The notes beneath the pieces were generated by a model. The model had not been told where the DNA came from, searched no databases, and worked only from the letters and a program-made list of their open reading frames with translations. Positions 6,283-51,796 of a DNA stretch of 58,216 nucleotides are shown here, in pieces. Origin of the DNA: Methylotenera sp. (GTDB taxonomy: Bacteria; Pseudomonadota; Gammaproteobacteria; Burkholderiales; Methylophilaceae); the NCBI GenBank assembly GCA_028688575.1, contig JAQTXW010000006.1:1-58216 (forward strand). The letters run 5' to 3'. How positions within the stretch are numbered: the first letter of the stretch is position 1; each line of letters opens with the position of its first letter. The translations under genes were made by a program, and so were the position numbers.

Positions 6283-6382
6283 TTAACCCAAAACTCCTAG
6301 GTAACTCTGTATCTATTTAGCTGGCAACTGACTGCCTTTAATATGCATTGACAACAGGCGCTTATGGAAAATCCGAGTTAAA
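6283..6382. repeat. Dispersed palindromic element, copy E (degenerate)
   Basis: The left end starts TTAACCC and runs to CTAGG. The right end TTATGGAAAATCCGAGTTAA differs at about three positions from the consensus right end. About 100 bp long with no recognisable central hairpin, so this is a decayed or shortened member. It lies between the ArsR and DUF442 genes. Confidence 0.5.
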
Positions 6383-6394
6383 GCATAAGACTTA

Positions 6395-6730
6395 CTAAAC
6401 TACCATAAACAACTTCTTAACCTCGGCCTCTTGAATGAGGCGATTCACTACCTGATCACATACCAACTCACATAACTTATAAACGGAAGGGTCAGCGATA
6501 CTGTAGAAAACACTCGTTCCGCGAGACTCTCTTTTGACCAGGCCATATTGCGCCAGCATGGAGAGGTGCTTAGACACGTTCGCCTGCGAGCAGCCTGAAA
6601 TTTCAGTTAATTGACCCACATTTTTCTCGCCATCCTGCAATGCGTTTAATACCTTCAAACGCGTAGGCTCAGCTAGCGCCTTGAAGTAATCAGCAACATA
6701 TGCAAGTGTATTATCGTTTAGCTTGCTCAT
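6395..6730 (-). CDS. ArsR/SmtB-family repressor of the efflux-sulfur locus
   Basis: A 111-residue winged-helix repressor: ALAEPTRLKVLNALQDGEKN, the helix-turn-helix around EISGCSQANVSKHLSMLAQY, and the wing VKRESRGTSVFYSI. It is divergent from the RND/rhodanese/SQR run, as YgaV, BigR and SqrR are from their sulfide genes. Its cysteines are C47, C87 and C91. The pair that forms the (poly)sulfide link in SqrR/BigR does not align: the helix-2 position reads LNAL, not cysteine. The inducer and chemistry may therefore differ. The ATG at 6730 is chosen because GGTGG lies just upstream; TTG at 6742 is an alternative. The likely operator is at 6785-6810. Confidence 0.88.
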   Translation of the reverse strand: MSKLNDNTLAYVADYFKALAEPTRLKVLNALQDGEKNVGQLTEISGCSQANVSKHLSMLAQYGLVKRESRGTSVFYSIADPSVYKLCELVCDQVVNRLIQEAEVKKLFMVV

Positions 6731-6784
6731 ACAACCACCCAACTTTTAATCAACAATCCAATTATACATTAAAATAATGATTTG

Positions 6785-6810
6785 ACTATATAACTACATA
6801 GTAATATAGT
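6785..6810. promoter_or_regulatory. Probable ArsR operator between repressor and RND genes
   Basis: ATATAACTA-CA-TAGTAATAT at 6788-6807 is a 20-bp inverted repeat with one mismatch, and ACTATAT at 6785-6791 pairs with ATATAGT at 6804-6810. It lies in the 111-bp divergent region. Nearly the same repeat occurs at 16711-16730 upstream of ccoG. Confidence 0.7.
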
Positions 6811-6841
6811 GTCATTTAGTTTGAATGAATGAGTTAGACCC

Positions 6842-7897
6842 ATGCAACGATACACAAACACATATTTACCGACAGCCATTGCCCTCATGTTCTTAGCATG
6901 GATAAGCGCCATGCGCGTTGCCATGGCAGATGAATTGCTCACTTACGTTATCAAAGAGTCACAACAAGCTCCCACCATGACAGTAGAGGGTTCAGTAGAA
7001 GCGGTGCAATTCAGCACTATTGCACCGCAAGTGACAGGCAACATCGTAGCTTTGCCAGTAAAAGCCGGGGACACAATCAAGGCTGGTCAATTGCTTGCAC
7101 GTATTGACACACGCATTGCGCAGCAACAAGTCATCTCCCATCAGGCGCAAGTTGTGGCGGCAAATGCACAACTAAGCGCAGCACGTCAGGAATATGAGCG
7201 CAAACGTCGCTTACATGAAAAACAATATATCAGCCAGGCTGCGTTAGAGCGGGCTGAATCTGATTACAAAATCGCTGAGGCGCAAGCCAAGGCACAACTG
7301 GCACAAACAGGTGTTGCGAATGTGCAAACTGGCCAACATACCATCAACGCGCCTTATGCAGGCTTAATTGCCGAAGTCATGGCTGAACTTGGTAACATGG
7401 CAACACCAGGCAAACCATTGTTTTCCATTTACGACCCTAAAGCATTGCGTGTAGTCGTGAATGTTCCTCAAAGCCAGCTGGCGCAAATTAAGCCTGGCGC
7501 AGGCATTCAAGTATTGATTCCTGCTGCAACAGAAGTTGAGCGCAGTCTGACAGCTACGAAAGTAACGATATTGCCCACTGCTGACGCAGTAAGCAATATG
7601 ACAAAAGTACGTATTACCTTACCCTCCAATTTAACCAGCATTCGCCCTGGCATGTTCGCGCGCGCCATGTTGCCAGTGAATAATGCCAACACCTCCGTGC
7701 AGATTATTGTGCCTGCAAAAGCTGTGATTAAACGCAGCGAGTTAACAGCCGTTTATGTGGTGGATAGCAAAGGCAAGCCACAATTGCGGCAAATTAGATT
7801 AGGTCGCAAACAAGGAGATTTTTACGAGGTGTTTGCTGGACTGCAAGCAGGTGAAGAAGTGGCCGTCGATCCAATTTCAGCCGCGAACTTTAAATAA
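6842..7897 (+). CDS. RND efflux periplasmic adaptor (membrane fusion protein)
   Basis: The protein links an inner-membrane RND pump to an outer-membrane channel. It has an N-terminal signal sequence (hydrophobic TAIALMFLAWISAM, cleavage near VAMA), a biotinyl-lipoyl half-motif KAGDTIKAGQLLARID, a helical hairpin (VAANAQLSAARQEYERKRRL onward), a second lipoyl half (HTINAPYAGLIAEV) and a beta-barrel/MPD region ending near 351 residues. It is the first gene of the rightward run that includes the pump, the TolC-like channel and sulfur genes. The substrate cannot be read from sequence. Regulation by the divergent ArsR protein is inferred from the operator in between. Confidence 0.92.
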   Translation: MQRYTNTYLPTAIALMFLAWISAMRVAMADELLTYVIKESQQAPTMTVEGSVEAVQFSTIAPQVTGNIVALPVKAGDTIKAGQLLARIDTRIAQQQVISHQAQVVAANAQLSAARQEYERKRRLHEKQYISQAALERAESDYKIAEAQAKAQLAQTGVANVQTGQHTINAPYAGLIAEVMAELGNMATPGKPLFSIYDPKALRVVVNVPQSQLAQIKPGAGIQVLIPAATEVERSLTATKVTILPTADAVSNMTKVRITLPSNLTSIRPGMFARAMLPVNNANTSVQIIVPAKAVIKRSELTAVYVVDSKGKPQLRQIRLGRKQGDFYEVFAGLQAGEEVAVDPISAANFK

Positions 7898-7922
7898 ATT
7901 CATAAAATAGATTCATAGATTG

Positions 7923-10900
7923 ATGACCAATCACACAGAAAAATTAGGTATTTCAGGCCGTATTGCAAAATATTTCCAGTCGGCACAAATTACGCCATTG
8001 ATTGGGCTGGTGGCGTTGCTACTTGGACTGTTTGCCATACTGGTCACCCCGCGTGAGGAAGAACCGCAGATTAATGTGACCATGGCGAATGTGCTGATTC
8101 CGTTTCCTGGCGCATCGGCAAAAAATGTTGAACAGATGGTAGCAGTTCCAGCTGAGCAGGTGCTTTCACAAATTGCGGATATTGAACATGTCACTTCAGT
8201 TTCGCGTCCTGGCATGGCAGTGATTACGGTGCAGTTTGAAGTAGGGGTTCCACGCACCGAGGCACTGGTCAGGCTGTACAACACCATTCAGTCTAATCAG
8301 GACTGGTTGCCGAAAAATCTGGGCGTGGGTGAGCCGATTGTTAAACCAAAAGGCATCGATGATGTGCCAATTTTAACGGCAACCTTATACACAAAAAATA
8401 ACCAGCAAGGTGCCTATGAACTTGAGCGCGTAGCACATGCGCTGGAAGCTGAAATCAAGCATGTGAAAGGCACGCGTGAAGTCATCACCCATGGTGGGCC
8501 CAGGCGTGCGGTGAATATCGCACTCGACCCTGTGCGCATGGCAGCCGCCAATGTCACGGTTGCAGATATGCGCCGTGCGCTGCAGTCTGCAAATCTGGGC
8601 GCTCCTTTAGGTGAGGTCGTCAATGCCAATCAGGCAATTGCTATCGAGGTGGGCAATTATCTGGTAGACGCCAATGACGTAGCTGAGCTGGTGGTAGGCT
8701 TGCATGCAGGTCACCCCGTTTATCTGGCCGAGGTGGCCGAGGTAACGAATGGGCCATTGCCTGCGGAGCGTTTTGTCTGGTATGGCGAGGCTGGCAACAC
8801 AGCCGAGTATCCCGCGGTGACATTAAGCGTGACCAAAAAACCTGGGCAAAATGCGGTGACAGTTTCTGATGCTGTGATCAAGCAGATCGAAAGCCTCAAA
8901 AATGTGCTGATACCTGCGGATATGGAAGTGAAGGTCACGCGCAACTATGGCGAGACCGCTAACGAGAAAGCACAGAAACTTATCCAGAAATTAATTTTTG
9001 CCACTTCAGCAGTGGTGCTGCTGGTGCTCGTCGCACTAGGCCGCCGTGAAGCTGCAATCGTTGGCACGGCTGTTATTTTGACACTTACCGCCACTTTATT
9101 CGCATCATGGGCATGGGGATTTACCCTGAATCGCGTTTCATTATTTGCGCTGATTTTTTCTATCGGCATTCTGGTGGATGATGCCATTGTGGTTGTTGAA
9201 AACATCCATCGCCACATGAAACTTAAGCCCCAAGCAAGCCTCACAGAGATTATCCCTGTGGCGGTAGATGAAGTAGGTGGCCCCACGATACTTGCTACGC
9301 TGACGGTGATTGCAGCCCTGCTGCCCATGGCATTTGTGAGCGGTTTGATGGGGCCATACATGAGCCCGATTCCAATTAACGCCAGCATGGGTATGCTCAT
9401 TTCGCTCGCCATCGCTTTTACCATTACGCCATGGCTGTCACGCATCTGGCTGCGCCATGCGCAACACGAAGATGCCTTGGCAAAACGAATTTCGCCATTG
9501 TTTACACGTATTTTCACGCCATTTCTGCATGATACCAAAGGCAAAAGCAATAGGCGGAAACTCAGCATGGCGATACTCGGGCTCATTGTTATTTCGCTTG
9601 CCCTGCCAGTCGCGCAATTAGTGGTGATGAAAATGCTGCCATTTGATAATAAATCTGAATTTCAGGTAGTCGTGGATATGCCCGCTGGTACGCCACTGGA
9701 AAAAACCGCCAGCGTGATGCACGCCATGACAGCCCACCTTGCTACCGTGCCAGAAGTGATTAACTATCAGGCCTATGTCGGGACTTCTGCTCCCATTAAT
9801 TTTAATGGCCTTGTGCGCCAGTATTATTTGCGCAGTGGCGGTGAAATGGGCGACATTCAGGTGAATCTGGTGGAAAAAAATCACCGCAGCGAACAGAGCC
9901 ACGCCATTGCCAGCCGCATCAGGCCAGAACTGCAAAAGATTGCGCGCGAGATGGGCGCTAACGTCAAGGTGGTGGAAGTACCGCCAGGACCGCCCGTGAT
10001 TTCACCGATAGTGGCTGAGATTTATGGCCCAGAGGATGCAGACAGGATGCGCATCGCCAGACAGGTAAGACAAGTGTTTGAGCAAACGGCCGACATCGTC
10101 GATACCGATGACAGCAGTATTGCGGATGCGAAAAAGACGGTTTTGGTTGTCGACAAGAAAAAATCGGCCTTACTTGGCGTAACACAGGCTGCAATCGTGA
10201 GTACCTTGCATGCAGGTTTGGCGGGAGAGGATGTGAGCTATTTACATGACGCAAGCAAATATCCAACAGGCACACGTTTACGTTTGCCCGTTTACTCGCA
10301 AGGGGATGTTGAAGACTTGCTCAAGCTATCGGTGGCCACCTCATCGGGCAAGCTGGTGCCGATACGTGAACTGGTCACACAAGAGGACGCGCTACGGGAA
10401 CAGCCGATTTACCATAAAGATTTGCTGCCTGTTAATTATGTCATGGGCGACATGACAGGCAAACTGGACAGCCCCTTATACGGCATGTTTGGCATGCGCG
10501 GTGACGTGTCTAAAATAGCCGTGCCTGGCGATCAATTAAGCGAGTACTTTATTCAGCAGCCAGAAGATAGCCATCGTGGCTATGCGATTAAATGGGATGG
10601 TGAGTGGCAGGTGACTTACGAAACTTTCCGTGACATGGGCGCCGCTTACGCAGTGGGCCTGATATTGATTTACCTGCTGGTGGTTGCACAGTTTGGTTCT
10701 TATTTAACTCCGCTCATTATCATGGCACCGATTCCGTTAACCATTATCGGCGTAATGCCAGGCCACGCATTGCTGGGTGCACAATTTACCGCCACCTCAA
10801 TGATCGGCATGATTGCGCTGGCGGGGATCATCGTGCGTAACTCCATTCTTCTGGTGGATTTTATTAATCTGGAGGTCGCATCAGGCAAGCCATTCAAAGA

Positions 10901-11108
10901 GGCAGTGATGAACTCAGCCATTACGCGTGCGCAGCCCATTATGCTGACGGCTTTATCAGCTATGCTAGGCGCTTTTTTTATACTGGATGACCCTATCTTT
11001 AACGGGCTGGCGATCTCACTCATCTTTGGCATTTTTGTTTCAACTGTGCTGACATTGGTGGTGATTCCCTTACTTTATTTTGTGGCCTATCACCGTAAAT
11101 TGACTTAA
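7923..11108 (+). CDS. RND efflux pump, inner-membrane subunit
   Basis: This is a proton-driven AcrB/MdtB-type transporter of normal length (1,061 residues from ATG 7923; a TTG lies just before it). Twelve membrane segments in two repeats are visible, with two large periplasmic loops. The proton-relay aspartates are in TM4 (ILVDDAIVVVEN). The N-terminus EEEPQINVTMANVLIPFPGA is typical of a subgroup found with single adaptors. The gene follows the adaptor by 25 bp and precedes a DUF2892 protein, so it is operonic. Sulfur genes in the same run suggest a toxic sulfur compound or stress-related metabolite as substrate, but this is inference. Confidence 0.94.
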   Translation: MTNHTEKLGISGRIAKYFQSAQITPLIGLVALLLGLFAILVTPREEEPQINVTMANVLIPFPGASAKNVEQMVAVPAEQVLSQIADIEHVTSVSRPGMAVITVQFEVGVPRTEALVRLYNTIQSNQDWLPKNLGVGEPIVKPKGIDDVPILTATLYTKNNQQGAYELERVAHALEAEIKHVKGTREVITHGGPRRAVNIALDPVRMAAANVTVADMRRALQSANLGAPLGEVVNANQAIAIEVGNYLVDANDVAELVVGLHAGHPVYLAEVAEVTNGPLPAERFVWYGEAGNTAEYPAVTLSVTKKPGQNAVTVSDAVIKQIESLKNVLIPADMEVKVTRNYGETANEKAQKLIQKLIFATSAVVLLVLVALGRREAAIVGTAVILTLTATLFASWAWGFTLNRVSLFALIFSIGILVDDAIVVVENIHRHMKLKPQASLTEIIPVAVDEVGGPTILATLTVIAALLPMAFVSGLMGPYMSPIPINASMGMLISLAIAFTITPWLSRIWLRHAQHEDALAKRISPLFTRIFTPFLHDTKGKSNRRKLSMAILGLIVISLALPVAQLVVMKMLPFDNKSEFQVVVDMPAGTPLEKTASVMHAMTAHLATVPEVINYQAYVGTSAPINFNGLVRQYYLRSGGEMGDIQVNLVEKNHRSEQSHAIASRIRPELQKIAREMGANVKVVEVPPGPPVISPIVAEIYGPEDADRMRIARQVRQVFEQTADIVDTDDSSIADAKKTVLVVDKKKSALLGVTQAAIVSTLHAGLAGEDVSYLHDASKYPTGTRLRLPVYSQGDVEDLLKLSVATSSGKLVPIRELVTQEDALREQPIYHKDLLPVNYVMGDMTGKLDSPLYGMFGMRGDVSKIAVPGDQLSEYFIQQPEDSHRGYAIKWDGEWQVTYETFRDMGAAYAVGLILIYLLVVAQFGSYLTPLIIMAPIPLTIIGVMPGHALLGAQFTATSMIGMIALAGIIVRNSILLVDFINLEVASGKPFKEAVMNSAITRAQPIMLTALSAMLGAFFILDDPIFNGLAISLIFGIFVSTVLTLVVIPLLYFVAYHRKLT

Positions 11109-11126
11109 TTTTTTGGAGAAACATCT

Positions 11127-11336
11127 ATGACTTCCTGGAAACTTGTTCGTGTAATCGCTGGTTTTTTTATCCTGCTTTCATTAGCGCTGGGCATGACTGA
11201 AAGCCCGTTTTTTGTGAGCCGCTACTGGTTGTATTTCACAGCTTTTGTTGGCATTAACCTGCTGCAAAGTGGCTTGACCAACTGGTGCCTCATGGAAAAT
11301 ATCTTACGTAAATTGGGCGTACGTGCGGGCTGCTAA
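11127..11336 (+). CDS. DUF2892 membrane protein (YgaP C-terminal-like)
   Basis: A 69-residue protein with two membrane segments (VIAGFFILLSLALGM and YWLYFTAFVGINLLQSG) and the family's ending CLMENILRKLGV. DUF2892 forms the C-terminal membrane half of YgaP, the inner-membrane rhodanese. Here it is a separate gene, 18 bp after the RND pump; the rhodanese half is encoded three genes on as a lipoprotein. GGAG precedes the start by 7 nt. Its stop codon ends one base before the next gene's ATG, indicating translational coupling. Confidence 0.85.
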   Translation: MTSWKLVRVIAGFFILLSLALGMTESPFFVSRYWLYFTAFVGINLLQSGLTNWCLMENILRKLGVRAGC

Positions 11337-11337
11337 A

Positions 11338-12714
11338 ATGCGTTTACGCTACTACTTACCGTTGTTGGTTTTTGTTTCAGGTCAGGCACAGGCTTTTGAC
11401 CTTTTAGAGGCTTGGCAGGCTGCGCGTACGCAAGATCCTGCCTTTGCAGCGGCACGCGCAGAGGCGGATGCTGGTCGCACCAAAACATCACAGGCAAGCG
11501 CACTTAAAGGTCCGCAAGTGATGCTCAACGCGGGTGCTGGCGGGGTCAGTAATGATCAGAAAATCACTGGCGCTCAGTTCTCAAACGCGCAATTTGCGGG
11601 TGGTGGCGCTGGTACCAAGGGCACCACTGACTTTCGCACTCAAACGGATGGTGGGCTGAATCTTAATCTGAATCTGCGTGCGGAATATGCCCTTTATGAT
11701 GCAACACGCACCGGCTCTGCCATGCAATTGAATAAACAGGCTGAGTTGGCGGAGGTGCAGCTAAGTGCAGAAGCGCAACATTTAATGCTGCGCGTAGCCC
11801 AGGCTTATTTTGATTCACTGCTGGCTACAGATGCGCTTACTGCGTTAAAGGCGCAGCAACTGGCAGTTGCCAAGGCGCTGGAAAGTTCGCAGGCACGCTT
11901 CAAGGAAGGTGATGTCGCCATTATTGATACGCATGAAACCCAGGCACGTTACGACATGCTGGCGTCACAAGTGCTTGAAGCAGAAAGCAATGTACAGCTC
12001 ACGCGTGCAGTAATGGCAGATATTTCTGGCAATCAGGATGCAGCATTGCAACGTTTATCCAGCAATACTGATTTTAAGCGTTATGTAAACGGTGATTTGC
12101 AAAGCTGGCTAACACGTGCGCAAACCAATCATCCGCAAGTGCATGTGCAGCAATTGCAACAGCAAATCGCGCAGGTTGAGAGTGAGAAATTCAAGTCTAA
12201 GTACGCGCCTACTGTGAGTTTAGTCGCGCAGGCTGGTGGTGAGCGTTTAATGGGCTTAGCAGGCAGTGATGCTGATGTGACCAATCGACAGCTAGGTCTG
12301 GGGGTTCAATTGACGATTCCTCTCTACAGTAGCGGCATGCGCGATGCCAAATATCAGGAAGCGTTGGCATTAGAAGAAAAAACCCGCAGTCAGACTGATT
12401 TCGCACGTCAGCGCGCAGCGCAGGAAGCAAGGTCGGCCTGGGTGGCAGTAAACGTCGGCCAAAGCCAGATTAAGGCGCTGGAGCAGGCAGAACATTCAGC
12501 CTTGACCAAGCTGGATTCCACCCGCGTGGGGCGTGACGTAGGTGACCGCACAACGCTGGATGTACTGAACTCAGAACAGGAACTTCACAATACCAGGCTC
12601 GCATTATCACGCAGTAAATATCAGCTATTACATGCACTGCTTAACCTTTCTGCAGCGGCGGGCGAGCTTAACGAAGCACGTTTAGAAGAAATCAATCAGG
12701 TGTTTAAACCATAG
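11338..12714 (+). CDS. TolC-family outer-membrane efflux channel
   Basis: About 458 residues with a signal peptide (RLRYYLPLLVFVSGQAQA) and two TolC-type repeats of long helices (LEAWQAARTQDPAFAAARAE; later TNHPQVHVQQLQQQIAQVES), ending with NLSAAAGELNE. It should form the outer-membrane exit duct for the upstream RND pump. The ATG at 11338 is chosen over GTG 11323 because it directly follows the preceding stop codon and begins the signal peptide. Confidence 0.9.
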   Translation: MRLRYYLPLLVFVSGQAQAFDLLEAWQAARTQDPAFAAARAEADAGRTKTSQASALKGPQVMLNAGAGGVSNDQKITGAQFSNAQFAGGGAGTKGTTDFRTQTDGGLNLNLNLRAEYALYDATRTGSAMQLNKQAELAEVQLSAEAQHLMLRVAQAYFDSLLATDALTALKAQQLAVAKALESSQARFKEGDVAIIDTHETQARYDMLASQVLEAESNVQLTRAVMADISGNQDAALQRLSSNTDFKRYVNGDLQSWLTRAQTNHPQVHVQQLQQQIAQVESEKFKSKYAPTVSLVAQAGGERLMGLAGSDADVTNRQLGLGVQLTIPLYSSGMRDAKYQEALALEEKTRSQTDFARQRAAQEARSAWVAVNVGQSQIKALEQAEHSALTKLDSTRVGRDVGDRTTLDVLNSEQELHNTRLALSRSKYQLLHALLNLSAAAGELNEARLEEINQVFKP

Positions 12715-12735
12715 TTTTTTGAAAAAGGATAAGCC

Positions 12736-13125: not shown

Positions 13126-13138
13126 CAGGGGCTAAATA

Positions 13139-13735: not shown

Positions 13736-13761
13736 GCATAGTCGCGTTTGCTTAACTTTAA

Positions 13762-15045
<1,284 letters not shown>

Positions 15046-15052
15046 AACAATA

Positions 15053-15209: not shown

Positions 15210-15227
15210 AATCTTACTTATTAATGT

Positions 15228-30475: not shown

Positions 30476-30594
30476 TTTAAGCCAGATTTTTCATCTGGCG
30501 ATTTTACATCTACCTGAATGTCAACTAGCCAACTTGTTGGCTTTAGTGTTGGTTATCAGTCGCCGCCAAGTACTAATGGAAAGTCCAGGTTTAA
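30476..30594. repeat. Dispersed palindromic element, copy C (short)
   Basis: This element has the same orientation as copy A. It begins TTTAAGCCAGATTTTTCATC and ends TAATGGAAAGTCCAGGTTTA. Only ~119 bp remain, and the central hairpin present in copies A and B is missing. It starts 2 bp past the rseB stop codon and lies between rseB and rseC in the sigma-E operon. Confidence 0.7.
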
Positions 30595-33100: not shown

Positions 33101-34747
33101 ATGCAGCAATATGACGTCTTGATTATTGGTAGCGGCCTGGCAGGATTATCCCTTGCATTAAGAACCGCAGCACATAAAAAAATATGCCTGGTCAGCAAAC
33201 GCAGCATCAATGACTCTGCCAGCAACTGGGCGCAGGGCGGTATCGCTGCCGTACTCAACGACAATGACTCCATAGAAGCACATATTCAAGATACTTTAAT
33301 CGCTGGGGCTGGCCTATGCGACAGTGCCGTCACCAAAAAAGTGGTTGAACATGGCAAAGAAACCATAGAGTGGCTCATTGAACAAGGCGTGGCTTTTACG
33401 CGAGAGCCAGATAACAGCGGCTACCACCTCACGCGCGAAGGCGGACACAGCCACCGCCGAGTCATACACTCTGCAGACGCCACAGGACACGCCGTACAAA
33501 CCACTCTGGCTGAAAAAGTTCGGCAACACCCTAACATCACCCTGTTTGAAAACCACATCGCCGTGGATTTAATCACCACGCAAAAGGTAAAAGAAAAAGC
33601 TGTACCCATATTCAATGGCAATCAATGTCTAGGTGCCTATGTGCTGGATAACGCCACAGGCAAAGTATTGACGATAGGCGCACAACATACCGTTTTGGCA
33701 ACAGGCGGCGCTGGCAAAGTGTATCTTTACACCACCAACCCTGACATCAGCACTGGCGATGGCATTGCCATGGCGTGGCGCGCAGGCTGCCGCATAGCCA
33801 ATATGGAATTTATTCAGTTTCACCCTACCTGCTTGTTCCACCCGCACGCAAAATCCTTTTTGATTTCAGAAATCGTGCGTGGCGAAGGCGGCCTGCTCAA
33901 ACTGCCCGATGGAACGCGCTTCATGCCAGAACATGACCCACGTGAGGAGTTGGCGCCGCGTGATGTCGTCGCGCGTGCCATTGACTTTGAAATGAAAAAG
34001 CGCGGGCTCGACTGCGTATATCTTGACATTTCACACAAAACACCTGAGTTCATACAGGAGCACTTCCCCAACATCCATCGCCGCTGCCTGCAACTGGGCA
34101 TCGACATCAGTAAGCAGGCTATTCCAGTAGTGCCAGCCGCACACTACACCTGCGGTGGCGTCATGACGGATGACAAGGGGCACACAGACATTAACAACCT
34201 TTACGCGATTGGAGAAACCGCCTGTACAGGCTTGCATGGTGCCAATCGCCTTGCCAGCAACTCCTTGCTTGAGTGTCTGGTGTTTGGGCAAGCTGCGGCA
34301 GAAGATATTTTAAGCCAGCCTGCCATCTCAGTGCCAACGCTCCCGTATTGGGATGAAAGCCGCGTCACTGATGCCGACGAAGAGGTGCTCATCACACACA
34401 CCTGGGATGAGTTACGCCGTTTTATGTGGAATTACGTTGGCATTGTGCGCACAGACAAACGGCTAAGCCGTGCACTGCACCGCATCCATATGCTGCGTGA
34501 CGAGGTGCATGAGTTTTATAGCAACTTTAAAATCAGCAACGATTTAATCGAGCTGCGCAACCTGCTGCAAGTGGCTGAACTGATAGTAAGAAGCGCCATG
34601 GAGCGCAAAGAGAGTCGTGGCTTGCACTTTAGCAAAGATTACCCTGAAACAGAACCCGACCCCATTCCAACCGTGCTGGAACCGTCAAATTATTACAGCT
34701 TGTTAGACAGCGAACATGGCCACCACCATCACACGCACGCACATTAA
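33101..34747 (+). CDS. nadB: L-aspartate oxidase
   Basis: NadB oxidises L-aspartate to iminoaspartate with FAD, the first step of NAD synthesis. 548 residues with the FAD motif [29 protein letters not shown], the active-site region [20 protein letters not shown], and the C-terminal helical domain ([20 protein letters not shown]). The last residues, GHHHHTHAH, are an unusual histidine run. It is divergent from rpoE. Its TAA stop lies within the left end of repeat copy A. Confidence 0.96.
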
Positions 34748-34924
34748 ACCCAGATTTTCCATTAGGCGATTTTGCATCTACTTGCATGTCAACTTGCCCA
34801 TTTTGCGTCTTTTTTACGCATATTTTCTGTCAATAGAATGGCTATTGACCATAAAATCTGCGTAAAAAATCCATCAAACTGCGCGGCGTTGCCACTGCAA
34901 GTCCTAATGGAAAATCTGGGTTAA
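34744..34924. repeat. Dispersed palindromic element, copy A (181 bp)
   Basis: The ends are inverted copies of AACCCAGATTTTCCATTAGG. Between them lies an imperfect hairpin at about 34809-34869, around CAATAG-AATGG-CTATTG and ending in AAAAAA. It spans from the nadB stop codon (TAA at 34745-34747 is part of the element) to the base before the nuclease ATG. No open reading frame or transposase is inside. Copies B-E are elsewhere in the window. Confidence 0.85.
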
Positions 34925-35440
34925 ATGTGGTTGAATCATCGTTTTCTGACGCATTTAGTTACCACAACTTTATTGTTATTCTTTGCGAGCTTAAGCCAAG
35001 CCGATGAACGTTATCGCGTGATTAGAATATATGATGGCGACACCGTTCTGCTTAAAAAAACAAGCCACAGCAAAGATCACAGCAAACTCAAGCTGCGCCT
35101 TGCCGACATTGATGCGCCCGAGCGCAACCAAGCCTATGGCAAGCAGTCACGCTTAGCCCTTAAAGATTTATGCACTGGCGATGATGTGACGGTAGAGGTG
35201 ACGCTGTTAAACAAAGATCAGTACGGGCGCGACTTAGGCAACTTAAGTTGTAACGAAATTGATGCTGCGCTTTACCTAGTAGAGCTAGGCCTAGCGTGGC
35301 ACAACGCCAAATACTCAGACAACTCTGCTACACAGCACGCGGAAGCTATCGCACGTGAGCATCAATTGGGGTTATGGGGAAATAAAAAGCCAACCCCGCC
35401 CTGGCAATGGCGTCATATACGGCAATCAAAATCTAAGTGA
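34925..35440 (+). CDS. Secreted thermonuclease (SNase-like)
   Basis: A 171-residue staphylococcal-nuclease-fold protein that hydrolyses DNA or RNA outside the cytoplasm. It has a signal peptide (VTTTLLLFFASLSQA), RIYDGDTVLL, RLADIDAPERNQAYGKQSR with acidic Ca ligands and the catalytic arginine, and NKDQYGRDLGNL. The ATG at 34925 directly follows repeat copy A, with only a weak GGG before it. No immunity or partner gene is evident. Confidence 0.9.
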   Translation: MWLNHRFLTHLVTTTLLLFFASLSQADERYRVIRIYDGDTVLLKKTSHSKDHSKLKLRLADIDAPERNQAYGKQSRLALKDLCTGDDVTVEVTLLNKDQYGRDLGNLSCNEIDAALYLVELGLAWHNAKYSDNSATQHAEAIAREHQLGLWGNKKPTPPWQWRHIRQSKSK

Positions 35441-43339: not shown

Positions 43340-43523
43340 TTTAACCCTGATTTTCCATTAGGACTTGCCGTGGCCACTGCCGCACAGTTTGATTGGTTTT
43401 CTGTGCAGATTTTATGGTCAATAGTCGTTCTATTGACCATAAAATCTGCGTAAAAAAGTCACAAAATGGGCAAGTTGACATGCAATTAGAGGCAAAATCG
43501 CCTAATGGAAAAACTGGGTTTAA
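43340..43523. repeat. Dispersed palindromic element, copy B (184 bp)
   Basis: This copy is inverted relative to copy A. The left end is TTTAACCCTGATTTTCCATT and the right end TAATGGAAAAACTGGGTTTA. The centre is a perfect 20-bp hairpin (43405-43424 with 43430-43449, loop TCGTT). It lies between the porin and nirB, inside the nitrate transcription unit. Confidence 0.85.
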
Positions 43524-43561
43524 GCCCCCCTTCATTATTTAATTTTAAAGCTGATAACACC

Positions 43562-45991
43562 ATGCAAAAAATGAAACTTGTAGTCGTTGGCAACGGTATG
43601 GCAGGCATGCGTACGGTTGAAGAATTGTTGAAAATTGCGCCTGATTTTTATGACATCACTGTATTTGGTGATGAGCCCTACCCTAATTACAATCGGATTA
43701 TGCTGTCGCCTGTGCTTGCAAATGAACAAACCATTGACGACATTATCCTTAACACGCGGGCGTGGTACCAAGACAACAACATCAAGCTCTATACTAGTGC
43801 GCGCATCAATAAAATTGATAGAAAAAACAGAATAGTTTATGCCGAAAATGGGTTCAGTGCAGAATATGACCGGCTGTTGCTAGCGACAGGTTCCAAGCCT
43901 TTTATGCTGCCAATTCCTGGAATAAATCTTGAAGGGGTATTAGGTTATCGTGACATTAAAGATACCAATGACATGATTAATGCAGCTAAAACACACAAAC
44001 ATGCAGTGGTGATAGGCGCAGGGCTACTCGGCCTGGAGGCCGCCAATGGCCTGAAAATACAAGGGATGGACGTCACTGTAGTGCATAAAAATGCATGGCT
44101 GCTTGACAGGCAGCTTGATCAAACGGCAGGGCAGATGTTGCAAAAGAACCTTGAAGCTAAAGGATTGAATTTCTTACTGCAAAAAAATACTGAACAATTA
44201 ATAGCTAATTCGCAAGGTCGCGTTCAGGCGGTTCGCTTTAAAGATGGCGTGGAGATTCCTGCTGATTTAGTCGTGATGGCGGTAGGCATACGCCCAAATT
44301 TCAGCCTGGCTGAATCAGCAGGTATTTACTGCAATAAAGGCATTGTCGTCAATGATACGATGCAAACCTATGACCCACGTGTCTATGCGGTAGGAGAATG
44401 TGTGTCACACCGTGGCATTTCCTATGGTCTGGTTGCCCCCTTGTTTGAAATGGCCAAAGTATGCGCTACCCATCTTGCCAATTTCGGCATAGGTCAATAT
44501 AAAGGCTCGGTTACCTCAACCAAGCTAAAAGTGACAGGCATTGATTTATTCAGCGCGGGCGACTTCACAGGCCGTGATGACTCAGAAGAAATTGTTTTAC
44601 ACGATGCAGTTGGCGGGGTTTACAAAAAACTCGTCATCAAAGATGACAAAATCATTGGCAGCGTGCTTTATGGGGATACCACGGATGGTTCGTGGTATTT
44701 TCAAATGCTAAGAGATGGCAAAGCCATCCATGAAATTCGTGACCACTTAATGTTTGGCCAGGACTCCTTGGGTAACACTGGTCACCAGGGACAGGACAAA
44801 GCCGCGGCCATGTCCAATGAAATGGAAGTCTGCGGTTGCAACGGCGTTTGCAAAGGCACCATCATCAAGGCCATTCAGGATAAAGGCTTATTTACGATTG
44901 ATGACGTCAAAAAACAAACCAAAGCGGGGTCTAGTTGTGGTTCATGCGTAGGCTTGGTAGAACAAATTCTGGCAAGTACATTGGGGGGCGGTTATGCACC
45001 ACCCTCCACCAGCAAAGCGGTGTGTGGCTGTACCGAAAAAAACCATGAAGAAGTGCGTGCAGAAATCCGCAACAACAAATACCTTAACATTCCGGATGCC
45101 ATGCGCGGCATGGAATGGCGCACACCCAACGGCTGTGCTACGTGCAGACCTGCGCTGAATTACTACCTGCTTTCCACTTGGCCACATGAAGCCGTAGACG
45201 ACCCGCAGTCGCGATTTATTAACGAGCGAGTACATGCCAATATCCAAAAAGATGGGACTTACTCTGTTATTCCCCGTATGTATGGTGGTGTTACCTCCCC
45301 TAACCAACTACGTAAAATTGCTGATGTCGCAGATAAATATGCGGTACCCATGGTCAAGGTAACTGGTGGGCAACGCATTGATTTGCTTGGTGTAAAAAAA
45401 GAAGATCTGGTCGATATGTGGAAAGATCTAGACATGCCATCGGGCTATGCCTATGCCAAGGGAATCCGCACGGTTAAAACCTGCGTTGGCTCAGAATTCT
45501 GTCGATTTGGTACACAAGACTCCACGCAAATGGGGATTGATATTGAAAAAGCATTTGACCACATGTGGGCGCCGCACAAAGTTAAATTTGCAGTGTCAGG
45601 CTGCCCACGTAACTGTGCAGAATCTGGCATTAAGGATGTGGGAATCATTGGGGTGGACTCAGGCTGGGAGATTTATGTCGGTGGCAATGGCGGCATAAAA
45701 ACCGAAGTTGCACAGTTTTTATGCAAAGTAAAAAGTCATGATGAAGTGCTGGAGTATTCTGGCGCGTTTATCCAAATTTATCGCGAAGAAGCGCGCTATC
45801 TGGATCGCACTGTACATTGGATTGCACGCGTCGGCTTGGATTACGTAAAACAACGTGTCGTTGAAGATGCAGAAGGCCGAAAAGCTGCCTACGAACGCTT
45901 GCTTTACGCACTACAAGGTGCAGTCAACCCATGGGCAGAACGCGTTGAAAACCGCGACAAACATAAAGAGTTTGAAACGATTACAGTCTAG
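43562..45991 (+). CDS. nirB: Assimilatory nitrite reductase [NAD(P)H] large subunit
   Basis: NirB reduces nitrite to ammonium with NAD(P)H and needs NirD. From ATG 43562 it is 809 residues: FAD/NAD oxidoreductase domain (VVVGNGMAGMRTVEELLK, LLLATGSKPFMLP, AVVIGAGLLGLEAANGLK), a BFD-type [2Fe-2S] domain (CGCNGVCKGTIIKAI, SSCGSCVGL), and the sirohaem/4Fe-4S reductase part (VKTCVGSEFCRFGTQDS, SGCPRNCAESG). The ATG at 43505 lies inside repeat copy B and is unlikely. nirD follows by 30 bp. Confidence 0.95.
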   Translation: MQKMKLVVVGNGMAGMRTVEELLKIAPDFYDITVFGDEPYPNYNRIMLSPVLANEQTIDDIILNTRAWYQDNNIKLYTSARINKIDRKNRIVYAENGFSAEYDRLLLATGSKPFMLPIPGINLEGVLGYRDIKDTNDMINAAKTHKHAVVIGAGLLGLEAANGLKIQGMDVTVVHKNAWLLDRQLDQTAGQMLQKNLEAKGLNFLLQKNTEQLIANSQGRVQAVRFKDGVEIPADLVVMAVGIRPNFSLAESAGIYCNKGIVVNDTMQTYDPRVYAVGECVSHRGISYGLVAPLFEMAKVCATHLANFGIGQYKGSVTSTKLKVTGIDLFSAGDFTGRDDSEEIVLHDAVGGVYKKLVIKDDKIIGSVLYGDTTDGSWYFQMLRDGKAIHEIRDHLMFGQDSLGNTGHQGQDKAAAMSNEMEVCGCNGVCKGTIIKAIQDKGLFTIDDVKKQTKAGSSCGSCVGLVEQILASTLGGGYAPPSTSKAVCGCTEKNHEEVRAEIRNNKYLNIPDAMRGMEWRTPNGCATCRPALNYYLLSTWPHEAVDDPQSRFINERVHANIQKDGTYSVIPRMYGGVTSPNQLRKIADVADKYAVPMVKVTGGQRIDLLGVKKEDLVDMWKDLDMPSGYAYAKGIRTVKTCVGSEFCRFGTQDSTQMGIDIEKAFDHMWAPHKVKFAVSGCPRNCAESGIKDVGIIGVDSGWEIYVGGNGGIKTEVAQFLCKVKSHDEVLEYSGAFIQIYREEARYLDRTVHWIARVGLDYVKQRVVEDAEGRKAAYERLLYALQGAVNPWAERVENRDKHKEFETITV

Positions 45992-46021
45992 CGTTAATAA
46001 TTAATTGATAAGGTGAATAAA

Positions 46022-46330: not shown

Positions 46331-46341
46331 GATTAAATACC

Positions 46342-49116
46342 TTGATTAAACAAACAAAATCTACCTGTTGCTATTGCGGCGTCGGCTGCGGGGTGATTAT
46401 TCACGCCAAGATTGAAAATGGGCATGACAAAATTATTGATGTAAAAGGCGACCCTGACCACCCCGCTAATTTTGGACGCTTATGCACCAAAGGCGCTACA
46501 CTGCACCTTACCGCCAAGCTTGATAACCGCTTGCTCTACCCAGAACTGCGCACTCAGCGTGATGCACACAGAACCCGCGCCACATGGGATGAGTCACTTG
46601 ATTTTATCGTTGAAAAGTTCGCCAGCACCATAGAAACACACGGGCCTGACAGCGTGGCTTTTTATATTTCAGGTCAATTGCTTACTGAAGATTATTATGT
46701 ATTTAACAAACTCGCCAAGGGTCTGATAGGCACTAACAATGTAGATACTAACTCCCGGCTCTGCATGAGCTCTGCGGTCACTGGCTACAAGACAACCTTG
46801 GGCGCAGACGCGCCGCCGGCCTGCTACGAGGATATCGACCATACCGATTGTTTGTTTATTGCAGGGTCTAATACTGCTTTTGCACACCCGATTATTTTTC
46901 GCCGCATTGAAGCTGCCAAAGAAAAAAATCCCGACTTAAAAATCATCGTGGTTGACCCGCGCCGCACAGATACCGCACAGGCGGCTGATCTGCACCTTGC
47001 AATCTTGCCAGGCACAGACGTCGCGCTATTTAACGGCTTACTGCATGTGATGTTGTGGGAAGGTTTGCTGGATATGACCTACATCAACGCCCATACCAAC
47101 GGCTTTGCGGAACTGAAAGAAACCATCCGTGAATACACCCCTAAGATGGTGGCTGATATTTGCGGCATCAAAGAAGCAGACATTATCACTGCTGCCAAAT
47201 GGTTCGGCATTGGTCCAACCCTGTCTATGTATTGCCAAGGGCTAAATCAATCTATTCACGGCACTGATAAAAATGCCGCGCTGATTAACTTGCATTTGGC
47301 TACAGGACAAATAGGCAAGCCAGGTGCAGGGCCACTTTCACTCACCGGGCAACCCAATGCAATGGGTGGCCGTGAAGTAGGCGGCATGGCCAATCTGCTA
47401 TCTGGTCACCGTGACTTGAGCAATGCTAAACATCGTGCAGAGGTCGCCAAGCTTTGGGGCATAGAAAGTGTGCCGGCAACCCCGGGCAAAACCGCAGTGG
47501 AGATGTTCGACGCGGTTAACGATGGCAGCATCAAAGCGATTTGGATTGCCTGCACTAACCCTGCGCACTCTATGCCAGACCTGAACAACGTACGCTTAGC
47601 TTTAACCAAGGCTGAATTAGTGGTGGTACAAGATGCCTTCAGCAACACTGACACCAGCCAATATGCCGATGTTTTGTTACCAGCGAGTACTTGGGGCGAA
47701 AAAGAAGGCACTGTTACTAACTCTGAGCGCCGTATTACTCGTATAAACCAAGCGGTAAAACCTCCCGCCGAAGCACATCATGACTGGGAAATCGTGGTGG
47801 AGTTTGCACAGCGTTTAACAAAACGTTTGGCGGCCAACGGTAACCCAAGCTTATCAAAGGGTGTGACTAAAAACCTATTTCCTTACACCAGTGCTGAACA
47901 AATTTTTAACGAACACAGAGAAACCACACGTGATCGTGATTTAGATATCACAGGATTAAGCTATGCCCTACTCAATGCACAAGGCCCGCAACAATGGCCA
48001 TTTACTACCGGCGACGTCACCGGCAAAGCACGTCTATACGCAGATGGCATATTTCAGAAACCAGATGGAAAAGCGCAATTTATTAACGCTACGTATAAAG
48101 GCACCGCAGATAAAACAGACGCGCGCCATCCCCTGCATTTACTCACTGGACGCCTGCGCGACCAATGGCACGGCATGAGCCGCACCGGCACAGTGGCACA
48201 GTTATTTAATCATGCTGAAGAACCTGTTATTCATATCAATGCCGATGACATGACACGCCGTTTGATTAAAACTGGAGATATTGTAAAAGTCAGCAATAAA
48301 CGCGGTAGCTTGGTGCTGCCTGCACAATTGTCAAACGAGGTTCAGCCTTCGCAAACGTTTATCCCCATGCATTGGGGCAGCCAATTTATGCATGGCTTAG
48401 GCGTTAATGCGCTGATGCCGCCTGCGTTTGACAAAACCTCCAAACAGCCTGAACTCAAACATACCGCTATTAAAATTGAGAAATTAGAATTACCTTGGCG
48501 TATGACGGTGATGCGTACCATCCAAAATTTAGAGATGCTACAAAAAATAAGTGGTTTGTTAGCAAACTTTGAGTATGCCAGCTGCTGCTTGTTTGGCCGT
48601 AAAACAGAACATCACGCTGGCATGCTGATTTTACGCGCCGCCCACGCACAAGCGCCAAATGGTGAATTGATTGCAAAAATTGACAGCTTACTAGGCATGA
48701 CAGATGATATGCCGTTACTTAACTACAATGATGCCAAACGTGGCATCAGCAAACGTATTCTGGTTGAAAACAATGTTAGCAACGGCAAACCAGAAGTGAC
48801 AGGCGTGCGTTTGGTAGGCGAAACACTTGCAGCAGACTGGCTGAAAGATGTGATGACCACAGGCGAATTTAGTGCCGAACTCCGCCGCTGGGGGTTAGCG
48901 CCACTAAGTGCACCACCTGCGGGCCAGCATAGCCGTGGCAAAATTATATGCAGCTGTTTAGATGTGGCTGAAAATAACATCATCGAAAACATTCAACTCG
49001 GTGCTGATTTAATCACCCTACAAAATAAACTGAAATGCGGCACAGAATGTGGCTCTTGCTTGCCAGAATTAAAGCAGCTTGTCAGTCGGCACAGCAAGCA
49101 CACTATCTCACGCTAG
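46342..49116 (+). CDS. nasA: Assimilatory nitrate reductase, catalytic subunit
   Basis: A molybdopterin enzyme that reduces nitrate to nitrite in the cytoplasm. 924 residues: N-terminal [4Fe-4S] motif STCCYCGVGCGV (C9, C10, C13, C17), the Mo-bis-MGD domain (DTNSRLCMSSAVTGYKTTLG), molydopterin-dinucleotide-binding domain (LLTGRLRDQWHGMSRTG), and a C-terminal BFD-like [2Fe-2S] domain (CSCLDVAENN, CGTECGSCLPEL). It starts with TTG at 46342; no ATG or good ribosome site is near, so coupling to nirD is likely. It completes the nitrate-to-ammonium path with NirBD. Confidence 0.93.
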   Translation: MIKQTKSTCCYCGVGCGVIIHAKIENGHDKIIDVKGDPDHPANFGRLCTKGATLHLTAKLDNRLLYPELRTQRDAHRTRATWDESLDFIVEKFASTIETHGPDSVAFYISGQLLTEDYYVFNKLAKGLIGTNNVDTNSRLCMSSAVTGYKTTLGADAPPACYEDIDHTDCLFIAGSNTAFAHPIIFRRIEAAKEKNPDLKIIVVDPRRTDTAQAADLHLAILPGTDVALFNGLLHVMLWEGLLDMTYINAHTNGFAELKETIREYTPKMVADICGIKEADIITAAKWFGIGPTLSMYCQGLNQSIHGTDKNAALINLHLATGQIGKPGAGPLSLTGQPNAMGGREVGGMANLLSGHRDLSNAKHRAEVAKLWGIESVPATPGKTAVEMFDAVNDGSIKAIWIACTNPAHSMPDLNNVRLALTKAELVVVQDAFSNTDTSQYADVLLPASTWGEKEGTVTNSERRITRINQAVKPPAEAHHDWEIVVEFAQRLTKRLAANGNPSLSKGVTKNLFPYTSAEQIFNEHRETTRDRDLDITGLSYALLNAQGPQQWPFTTGDVTGKARLYADGIFQKPDGKAQFINATYKGTADKTDARHPLHLLTGRLRDQWHGMSRTGTVAQLFNHAEEPVIHINADDMTRRLIKTGDIVKVSNKRGSLVLPAQLSNEVQPSQTFIPMHWGSQFMHGLGVNALMPPAFDKTSKQPELKHTAIKIEKLELPWRMTVMRTIQNLEMLQKISGLLANFEYASCCLFGRKTEHHAGMLILRAAHAQAPNGELIAKIDSLLGMTDDMPLLNYNDAKRGISKRILVENNVSNGKPEVTGVRLVGETLAADWLKDVMTTGEFSAELRRWGLAPLSAPPAGQHSRGKIICSCLDVAENNIIENIQLGADLITLQNKLKCGTECGSCLPELKQLVSRHSKHTISR

Positions 49117-49255
49117 TATCAAAATCACACGTATATCAAACCATGCTTATGCAGCACTTACAAAAATAAATCCGACTGGCATTTAAGCAACCTTAAAAAT
49201 AGATTAAAATTCTACACTTAACTATTTCAAAAAGCCTCGCTTCAAGGATTCCACC

Positions 49256-49735
49256 ATGCAAATCGCAATGAACACCGTAGTAACTATGACTTATGAACTA
49301 AAAGATGCCGATGGCAATGTGCTTGAATCAAGCAACGAGCCAGTGGCTTATTTACATGGTGGATACGACAATATTTTCCCTAAAGTGGAAGAAGCCATGC
49401 ATGGTAAAAATATTGGCGACGTTGTCATTGTTGATTTACAGCCAGTGGATGCATTTGGTGAATACGATGAAGAACTGGTACAGATTGAACCAGCCAGTGC
49501 CTTTCCAGCCACTGAACTCAAAGTGGGCATGCAATTTGAAGGTGAAGATGAAACTGGCGAAGTGATTTTGTACACAGTCACAGAAATCGCCGACGGCAAA
49601 GTGATTGTCGATGGCAACCATCCATGGGCTGGTGAACGTGTGGTTTTTACTGCAACCATTACCGATGTGCGCGCAGCAAATAAAGAGGAAGTATCACACC
49701 AGCACGTGCATGGTGCAGGCGGTCACCATCACTAG
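49256..49735 (+). CDS. slyD: FKBP-type prolyl isomerase SlyD-like
   Basis: A 159-residue SlyD family protein with the FKBP half (NTVVTMTYELKDADGNVLES, YLHGGYDNIFPKVEEAMHGK), the insert-in-flap chaperone domain (EYDEELVQIEPASAFP) and a histidine-rich tail (HQHVHGAGGHHH) that can bind nickel or other metals. It catalyses prolyl isomerisation and assists folding or metal delivery. It follows nasA by 139 bp and appears to have its own promoter. Confidence 0.93.
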   Translation: MQIAMNTVVTMTYELKDADGNVLESSNEPVAYLHGGYDNIFPKVEEAMHGKNIGDVVIVDLQPVDAFGEYDEELVQIEPASAFPATELKVGMQFEGEDETGEVILYTVTEIADGKVIVDGNHPWAGERVVFTATITDVRAANKEEVSHQHVHGAGGHHH

Positions 49736-49934
49736 CACTTCGCGCTGATGTGGTAGTTTTTAAAACCCGTCGTTTGAATTTGGATGAGTTCAATGCAAAC
49801 GAACTTCAAATATCAGCGGGCAGAAACAATAACACAACCCATATTAATAACTAGCCATAACCAATTATTATTAATTTATAACAAAACAGAATAACAAAAC
49901 ATAGCATGTTAATTGTAACTAATCGTAAAAATTG

Positions 49935-49943
49935 TGCTAGCAT
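49935..49943 (+). promoter_or_regulatory. Extended -10 promoter candidate for hupB
   Basis: TG-C-TAGCAT at 49935-49943 has the extended -10 form. TTGTAA at 49913-49918 is a -35 with a long 19-nt spacer. The rest of the 291-bp gap from 49736 shows no gene. Confidence 0.35.
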
Positions 49944-50026
49944 GATGAAATGTACTTACAAAGCTTATCATTGCGAGCCTGTAGACAAATTTGACCCTTA
50001 TTTAACCAATTTTTAGGACTTACAAT

Positions 50027-50299
50027 ATGAATAAATCTGAATTAGTTGCAAAAGTAGCCGCTGAAGCTGGTGTAACACAGGCTGACGCTAACCGCGTATT
50101 GGATGCAATCACCAACACTATCGGCAACGCATTAAAAGCGGGTGACAATGTTGCACTCGTAGGCTTTGGTACATTTCAAGTGACTGCAAAAGCAGCACGC
50201 ACAGGCCGCAACCCATCAACAGGCGCAACAATTCAGATTGCTGCACGCAATGCACCTGTATTTAAAGCAGGCAAAACTCTGAAAGACAAAGTAAACTAA
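50027..50299 (+). CDS. hupB: DNA-binding protein HU (beta type)
   Basis: A 90-residue nucleoid protein that bends DNA as a dimer. [20 protein letters not shown] forms the helical base and [20 protein letters not shown] the arm; the tip and tail read [24 protein letters not shown] precedes the ATG, and a strong terminator follows. Confidence 0.96.
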
Positions 50300-50335
50300 T
50301 TTTAAATTAGCGTTACATTTAAAACGTTACATTTA

Positions 50336-50366
50336 ACAAAAGGGGCGCATTTGCGCCCCTTTTGTT
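50336..50366 (+). terminator. Intrinsic terminator of hupB
   Basis: ACAAAAGGGGCGCA (50336-50349) pairs with TGCGCCCCTTTTGT (50352-50365), a perfect 14-bp stem. The T run is built into the stem's right arm. Confidence 0.9.
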
Positions 50367-50498
50367 TACCCTATAGCCATCCTCTCAGAACTCATCCCTC
50401 ACACAGACACCTGCGCGACCACTTGAGTTAATGGACTACACACTCAAGTCAACAAAAAACACCTGCATAGTGAAAAAGCGACACCCTTGAAGATTCTT

Positions 50499-50526
50499 GC
50501 CACGGCCTATATGATCAAGCCGTGGC
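50499..50526 (-). terminator. Stem-loop past the gap stop codon
   Basis: GCCACGGC (50499-50506) and GCCGTGGC (50519-50526) pair around a 12-nt loop, 15 bp beyond the gap stop. It has no T tract on the minus strand, so termination is only possible. Confidence 0.45.
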
Positions 50527-50540
50527 GCAGTCACACAGCA

Positions 50541-51542
50541 TTAAGCAATATGCTGCACTAGGCGCAATAAGTTACAGGTGTAGCCGTACTCATTGTCATA
50601 CCAGCCAATCACTTTCAAGAAGGTGGGATCAAGCATGATGCCAGCATCCGCATCGAATACTGAAGCCGCAGGTGCTGTACGGAAATCAGTCGAAACTACT
50701 TTTTCTTCCGTGTAGGCTAATACGTTTTTGAGCCCGCCTTCTGATGCAGCCTTCATCGCAGCACATACTTGTGCGTATGTCGTTTTCTGGGTGAGTTCTA
50801 CTGTTAAGTCCACCACCGACACATCTGCCGAAGGCACGCGTAGCGCCATGCCGGTGATTTTTTGGTTGAGCGACGGAATCAGCACACCAATGGCTTTTGC
50901 CGCACCCGTGCTTGAAGGAATGATGTTTTCAAACACACCGCGACCCCCGCGCCAATCCTTTTTGGAAGTGCCATCTACTGTCAATTGTGAAGCCGTGGCA
51001 GCGTGCACGGTCGTCATCAAGCCGCGCTTCACACCAAAGTTATCATCTAACACCTTCACCAGCGGCGCTAAACCGTTGGTTGTACAAGAGGCGGCTGACA
51101 CAATGGCCTGACCTTGATAGTCCTGATGATTCACGCCGTAAACAAACATCGGGGTATCGTCTTTACCAGGGGCCGATTGCACGACTTTTTTTGCGCCTTT
51201 GTCGATATGGATCTGGCAGCTTTCCTGCGTTAAAAACTTACCTGTAGATTCCACTAGAATATCTACACCCATCTCATCCCAATCAATATAAGCTGGGTCA
51301 CGCTCACTAGTCACGTGAATTTTTTTGCCATTCACCACCAAACAATCATTTTCAGCACGTACATCCGCATTAAAGCGGCCATGCACCGAGTCGTATTTCA
51401 GCATATACACCATATAATCAAGGTCTTGCGTGCCATTCACTGCCACCACCTCAATATTGCTAAACTCAGGCTCCTGCACTACAGCTCTTAACACCATGCG
51501 CCCAATGCGGCCATATCCATTAACACCTATTCTTAATGCCAT
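50541..51542 (-). CDS. gap: Glyceraldehyde-3-phosphate dehydrogenase, type I
   Basis: GAPDH converts glyceraldehyde 3-phosphate to 1,3-bisphosphoglycerate with NAD(P). 333 residues with the Rossmann motif [16 protein letters not shown], the catalytic [13 protein letters not shown] cysteine, [12 protein letters not shown], and the end [16 protein letters not shown]. The gene stands alone, with repeat copy D upstream. Confidence 0.96.
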
Positions 51543-51602
51543 GTTATTCCCCTAAAAACTAAAATTACTTTATTAAGATCCAGCCTGTGTACTGCGATTA
51601 CG

Positions 51603-51796
51603 TTAAACCCAGATTGCCCATACCTCTTGCCAAAGATTAAAAGCAGCAACGCCTCAGCATTGAATGTATTTTTTAGTAGATTTTATAGGCAATCGTGGTT
51701 TTATTGACAGAAAATATACCCAAAAAAAGACACAACTTATAGTCAAGCAGACATTAAAGCAGATGCATTACCGACTTAGAGCGAAGCTGGTGTTAA
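51603..51796. repeat. Dispersed palindromic element, copy D (degenerate)
   Basis: The left end TTAAACCCAGATTGCCCAT matches copies A and B. The middle AGATTTTATAGGCAATCGTG and TTTATTGACAGAAAATATAC align with the B and A centres in B orientation. The right end GCTGGTGTTAA is weak. About 194 bp, diverged, between gap and the DUF2934 gene. Confidence 0.6.

Follow-up and report, generated by a model that had tools for sequence, protein, structure and literature searches.

The stretch of DNA examined here, hereafter the window, comprises 58,216 nucleotides from a Methylotenera sp. (Methylophilaceae; GenBank assembly GCA_028688575.1, contig JAQTXW010000006.1) and is contig C4 of a 93-contig, 2.25-Mb assembly (G000) that is 98.2% complete. 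An earlier note, made from the letters of the window alone, had described in it a family of five dispersed palindromic elements, here called copies A to E, and these are our subject. Copy A (34749..34920, plus strand) is a full-length miniature inverted-repeat transposable element (MITE) of 172 bp, both 18-bp ends of which are perfect. The target duplication TTAAA lies on its left (34744..34748), where it holds the TAA stop of the upstream open reading frame (ORF; 33101-34747), and on its right (34921..34925), where its final base opens the ATG (34925) of the next ORF; copy A is therefore placed between the stop codon and the start codon of its neighbors, both of which touch the duplication. 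Copy B (43345..43518, minus strand) is a 174-bp MITE in the opposite orientation, with one mismatch in each end and the duplication TTTAA at 43340..43344 and 43519..43523; a nitrite-reductase-like gene probably starts at the ATG at 43562, 38 bp beyond the right-hand duplication. Copy C (30481..30589, plus strand), a 109-bp short form with four mismatches in each end, is bordered by TTTAA (30476..30480 and 30590..30594) and flanked by rseC-like and rseB/mucB-like genes.

The element reads CCCAGATTTTCCATTAGG...CCTAATGGAAAATCTGGG, is about 172 bp long in its full-length form, and is accompanied by a 5-bp AT-rich target duplication. The end as first described, AACCCAGATT..., contains two bases of that duplication, and the element proper begins at CCC. 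Once the target duplication had been subtracted, the coordinates of A, B and C were confirmed, as was the inversion of B relative to A; stretches of these two copies are 86–93% complementary. The two copies that the earlier note had called diverged fared unequally. Copy D (51603..51796, minus strand), a decayed full-length copy with degenerate ends, held up: its local score of 102 compares with 33 at most among 200 first-order Markov resamples, and its best blastn match (73.7% over 152 bp) is to another copy in its own genome. Copy E (6283..6382, strand not assigned) is a probable short-form remnant in which the right end alone is recognizable (22 bp at 95.5%), and its score of 39 stands against a resample maximum of 32. 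We conclude that a non-autonomous transposon is represented by A, B and C, in decayed form by D, and by a weak remnant in E. Because copy C is closest, within the set compared, to a short copy from the Methylotenera genome G033 (85% over 102 bp), it may be a member of a short subfamily. Several short copies occur in G033 (loci such as L325, L332 and L334), and C is 77–85% identical to these.

The window's genome holds many more copies. A 20-bp end, searched with at most two mismatches, occurs 71 times (36 forward, 35 reverse), while the reversed control does not occur; a whole-assembly search yielded 29 near-full copies plus further pieces. Pairing of ends at no more than four mismatches in 189 kb of segments around the end matches, from which 19 further single ends (some of them chance) were excluded, gave 40 copies of 55–223 bp, 22 of them 171–175 bp long and none with a transposase gene. 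A perfect 5-bp duplication borders 22 of the 40. Swapping the right flanks leads one to expect 6.0, and the maximum over 10,000 such permutations was 16, with none reaching 22. The target sites are AT-rich, mostly TTTAA, TTAAA, TTCAA and TTGAA. According to a simple ORF finder, none of the 40 paired copies lies within an ORF of at least 150 amino acids. The claims of inverted ends and of a position between genes are both borne out by these counts. About the same central stretch is missing from three copies of 117–118 bp, one of which has a perfect 5-bp duplication; since the three lie at separate places, the shortened form seems to have multiplied itself.

Related genomes were then compared at the sites of insertion. 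Within the genus Methylotenera, 16 of 52 genomes (the window's own included) carry the 18-mer at no more than one mismatch, and the controls returned none. Each of the three sites could be compared in 29 loci from the genus, the window's own excluded; both flanks could be aligned in 25 (A), 23 (B) and 29 (C) of them. The end motif, at three mismatches or fewer, was present in 1/29 at site A and in 0/29 at both B and C. Copies at orthologous sites in all relatives, which the earlier note had named as the sign of fixed elements, were thus not observed. The single positive at site A is G033, the closest genome (87% at this site), which carries there a distinct family member of 108 bp (L237 2346-2453, G033:C18). 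Its duplication, ATTAA, is offset by one base from that of copy A at the same intergenic spot, and we read the element as a second insertion there or as a replacement. Site C of G033 consists of a 35-bp spacer between the matched flanks, and the locus contains no end motif at up to five mismatches.

A broad-host-range plasmid also carries a member of the family. Among 72,556 plasmid records, a Burkholderiales copy matched only pYKBU009, a river-sediment plasmid of type IncP-1 beta; searches of plasmid records with copy A and with an Undibacterium copy gave no match. The plasmid-borne MITE (L417 4001-4171, 171 bp) lies between kfrB and kfrA and is unannotated in the PLSDB gene table; the portion consulted of the paper that tabulates the plasmid's accessory parts lists Tn501 and IS1071 (PMC9499019). 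The kfrA-kfrB stretch matched 312 plasmid records, 85 of which covered most of it, and two were compared in detail. When the 171 bp and one TTTAA are removed from pYKBU009, the result is identical, letter for letter, to the 825-bp kfrA-kfrB stretch of pJP4 and pYKCT011-1. Given this exact empty site, a member of the family has moved. The family combines dispersed copies with an exact empty site on IncP-1 plasmids and with absence from sites A, B and C in 28, 29 and 29 of the 29 relatives compared.

A candidate for the mobilizing enzyme emerged from an exact 18-mer scan of the collected genome contigs, which returned at least 116 loci. Among the matches listed, 12 of 116 have an IS1380-type transposase adjoining the end motif, as judged by PF13701, a profile that we take to represent the transposase of this insertion sequence (IS) family. 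Locus L137 contains an intact IS of 1,496 bp with perfect 18-bp ends and TTGAA on both sides, and its 476-amino-acid protein scores 165 bits against PF13701; an autonomous IS with the same ends and a target duplication accordingly exists, intact in other proteobacteria. Also among the matches listed, an IS with both matching ends is found in G731, SKS3.bin12 and Geobacter UBA6802, and the latter two combine it with a MITE of 173–174 bp in the same metagenome-assembled genome (MAG). The IS ends at L400 and L401 have 0–2 mismatches. Nitrosomonas communis has a decayed 1,212-bp IS copy with both ends, and Methylotenera G007 a truncated IS1380-type IS bordered by the same end. Of 18 genomes reached by way of the loci, 7 have a PF13701 match above the cut-off and 10 are without any match. 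In L137, L142 and L194, a second, inverted inner-end motif (CCTAATGGAAGCCATTAG-like) lies just inside one IS terminus, and copy A, judged by eye, is without it; this extra motif may be an additional transposase site. Two candidates were rejected. A DDE-type ORF of the window's own genome (L061 910-2085, G000:C54) is a borderline match to PF13701 (34.7 bits) and IS4-like; it was ruled out as a partner because its best Pfam matches are DDE_Tnp_1 and DUF4372 and because the end motif is absent from the locus at up to four mismatches. The ends of L061 differ from those of the MITE. An end pair spaced 1,687 bp apart in G033 was likewise dismissed as an IS, as it encloses a 296-amino-acid ORF.

The same loci document the spread of the family beyond the genus. 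The 116 listed loci contain 65 paired elements, of which 40 are 171–175 bp long and 39 have perfect duplications, where swapped flanks lead one to expect 9.3. Carriers outside Methylotenera include Undibacterium isolates (U. amnicola and U. seohonense among them) and MAGs, Comamonadaceae, Burkholderiaceae, Gallionellaceae, Geobacter and other Deltaproteobacteria MAGs. The interiors often have no blastn match to copy A beyond the ends, yet they align with few gaps. For alignment, 63 elements were taken, one of which was dropped as unorientable; the 62 that remained were reduced to 46 at a 95% identity threshold (alignment A2). Alignment A3 consists of the 19 members of A2 outside the AT-rich Methylotenera subfamily (although its row L219 sits on a Methylotenera-binned contig), A4 of the remaining 27, and A5 of 27 hand-picked elements, three of them with odd or diverged ends. 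The strict pattern requiring both ends to be perfect was found in G000 only among 398 Pseudomonadota genomes; since that pattern is too strict, a covariance model (R1), built from the 19 elements of A3 and thus from other subfamilies, was used to gauge the spread. R1 finds copy A at E 5e-28 and copy B at 3.9e-18; copies C, D and E were not matched in the window. It matches 30/300 Burkholderiales genomes (the window's own included) and 22/135 genera in the full-length form, a count made with Infernal's stricter filters, so that weak members may be missed, and one in which a few low-scoring matches may be false; it includes three matches without family ends by eye (L386, L391 and L392), which may be false, and a short element with similar ends and another interior by eye (L396). 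Loci L389 and L390 have CCCGCATTTCTCACAGGGG-like ends and an interior resembling the family, and these ends may have diverged from the usual one; in L395, the ends are GGAGCCTGTCGGA-like and the interior is still matched by R1.

Most full-length members are predicted to fold alike, into one long imperfect hairpin built from an end stem, a long arm and a central hairpin, with a small side hairpin that occurs on the left only and is weak or lost in Methylotenera. In A3, both partners changed in 29 of 66 pairs, amounting to 121 cells against 38.0 in shuffled alignments, and the covariation of 0.270 exceeds both the shuffled value (0.110) and that of slid partners (at most 0.108). In A5, the corresponding figures are 48 of 66 pairs and 259 cells (80.6 shuffled), with a covariation of 0.388 (0.144 shuffled; slid partners at most 0.113). 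Because the folds behind these structures were computed from the aligned sequences themselves, they inflate the share of paired cells, and the two-sided changes and the slid controls are the better measure. Parsimony on a FastTree phylogeny of A5 gave 118 two-sided pair-keeping changes on 40 of the 48 interior pairs, compared with 4–17 for slid partners; 35 two-sided changes break the pair rule, 77 one-sided changes lose the pair, and 21 one-sided changes keep it (19–46 in slid controls). The length of about 172 bp and the pairing are kept, then, while the letters diverge.

Taken together, these results very probably describe a MITE family that is mobilized by an IS1380-type transposase with the same ends and whose hairpin pairing is kept, most likely at the DNA level. 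That the elements are non-autonomous and mobile, as the earlier note proposed, agrees with the inverted ends, the duplications at 22/40 copies, the exact empty site and the IS with identical ends. We find good evidence of transposition for an IS1380-type MITE. The transposase would recognize the 18-bp end common to IS and MITE and would insert the element at AT-rich sites, duplicating 5 bp. We infer that such an enzyme works on the MITE in vivo, and it would have come to the window's genome from outside or have since been lost.

Several observations weigh against this account. No IS1380-type transposase was found with PF13701 in the window's own assembly, which leaves the earlier suggestion of mobilization from elsewhere in the genome without a partner there. 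Matches to PF13701 occur in just 10/61 relatives. Among the same-genus carriers of the MITE, a strong one is confined to G007, and that in G021 is weak (26.7 bits) and covers the same stretch of the profile as the IS4-like L061. The target duplications of the IS copies L186/L400 and L401 are imperfect. IS and MITE share their ends alone; the matches of 11–20 bp inside the ends (E 0.1–0.6) are word-sized, and we rejected them as similarity. With respect to the hairpin, further pair types in A3 show no excess (49 vs. 49.0 shuffled). In Methylotenera alone, 9 of 63 pairs changed on both sides, a number reached by 7/500 shuffles, with 16 cells against 5.7. Finally, the recent copy on pYKBU009 folds with a disrupted arm and the 117–118 bp copies have no centre, so that the central hairpin is dispensable for movement.

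How the pairing is maintained, and whether the repeats are mobile at all, can be weighed against three alternatives. Fixed regulatory repeats, akin to repetitive extragenic palindromic (REP) or enterobacterial repetitive intergenic consensus (ERIC) sequences and inherited at the same places, would also be palindromic and would account for the absence of copies from ORFs of at least 150 amino acids. This explanation is at odds with the perfect duplications of the target and with the exact empty site, and also with the lack of the end motif in 28/29, 29/29 and 29/29 relatives at A, B and C; we therefore deem it most improbable, and the REP-like option raised in the earlier note falls for the same duplications and empty site. 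A different proposal concerns the hairpin only: it might be unselected, its complementarity being kept by quasipalindrome template switching, in which replication slips between the arms and copies one of them. The excess of two-sided over one-sided pair-keeping changes in A5 (118 vs. 21) and the slight strand preference described below both favor such copying. Arm copying would, however, tend to erase asymmetry, and the side hairpin is present on the left only, where 4 of the 5 pairs in it have both partners changed in A3; moreover, the unpaired TTC and TC in the facing loops are identical in 19/19 A3 sequences. The kept asymmetry and the invariant loops speak against copying alone, and we regard this proposal as possible but less likely than not.

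Alternatively, the interior could be a structured RNA made by transcription, for example from an upstream gene, and serve as a 3' mRNA stabilizer, a terminator or a small RNA. The strong covariation in A3 and A5 would suit an RNA. So would the location of the copies: 17/38 are no more than 25 bp away from the 3' end of a gene and 7/38 are near a 5' end, compared with 14 and 18 of 97 intergenic target 5-mers of the window, although copies and control use different ORF lists, the control is drawn from the window alone, and the gene list was hand-picked. This nearness to 3' ends may be passive, since the target can contain stop codons. The strand was examined with folds forbidding G-U, by counting interior G-U pairs vs. 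A-C mismatches, of which the former should prevail on the strand of a selected RNA. By cells, which are not independent, the counts were 33 v 58 on the plus and 58 v 40 on the minus strand in A5, 15 v 41 and 34 v 17 in A3, and 29 v 47 and 49 v 30 in A4. By columns, they were 22 v 24 (plus) and 24 v 24 (minus) in A5, 9 v 16 and 15 v 10 in A3, and 19 v 22 and 23 v 20 in A4. The tilt towards the minus strand is thus clearer by cells, where it appears in all three alignments, than by columns, where it appears in A3 only. The minus-strand columns of A5 and A4 show little preference, G-U intermediates are few, and at the gathering score Rfam 15 gave no match in the window and just a tRNA among 13 loci. 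We accordingly consider a structured RNA rather unlikely. The few one-sided steps and the slight strand preference point to DNA-level pairing or arm copying and not plainly to one RNA; on the same grounds, we favor pairing maintained at the DNA level, on both strands, as the most likely state, with the function of the fold an inference. A more specific version treats the interior as a folded module of DNA (or RNA) that is itself under selection and kept by compensatory change across Burkholderiales and Geobacter, perhaps with more than one kind of transposon end, as in L389, L390 and L395. We entertain this version with considerable doubt; if it is true, the family would be a DDE-type MITE in which shape, not sequence, is the conserved trait.

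The hairpins of MITEs are, in our reading of the field, usually regarded as by-products of inverted ends. A widely kept, covarying hairpin that spans the whole element is the surprise here; otherwise, this is a MITE of a known kind. Across very distantly related bacteria, the 172-bp design has persisted through many paired mutations, so that one can test whether a DNA hairpin aids the movement of a DDE-type element, its survival or its tolerance beside genes. To this, the analysis adds a transposase that is probably the partner, a rule for the target, the name of a broad-host-range plasmid carrying a copy, and a covariance model for finding members. Literature searches confined to open-licence PubMed Central papers brought up no report of this MITE family; the portions consulted of PMC10969869, PMC4133298, PMC10813416, PMC9499019, PMC9330008 and PMC3281130 name IS1380 elements or MITEs, not this family.

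Comparison with known systems places the family closest to IS1380-family ISs (e.g. IS1247, ISPme1 and ISEcp1), which have a PF13701 transposase and a 5-bp repeat, and of which copies with identical 18-bp ends were found here; the MITE differs in being geneless and in having no inner match beyond word-sized ones. The 5-bp duplication agrees with the direct repeat of 5 listed for IS1247, an IS1380-family element of 1672 bp with inverted repeats of 16/13, in the section consulted of PMC3281130. Bacterial MITEs such as Correia, Chunjie of Geobacter uraniireducens and QMITE2 of Coxiella are described, in the part of PMC10969869 consulted, as short and mostly intergenic, with AT-rich targets, size variants and foldable transcripts. 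The present family resembles them in these respects. For Chunjie, a length of 178–235 bp is given there, and the same part of that source does not speak of a constant length or of a covarying fold of the whole element across phyla for those MITEs. The family's 5-bp duplications and DDE-type partner set it apart from REP sequences and bacterial interspersed mosaic elements (BIMEs). These are likewise palindromic, intergenic and present in many copies; they are associated with REP-associated tyrosine transposases (RAYTs), and REP sequences move by a Y1-type enzyme without target duplication. The attC sites of integrons conserve structure over sequence and keep their asymmetry, and in both traits they offer an analogy to the present family, one that implies no membership.

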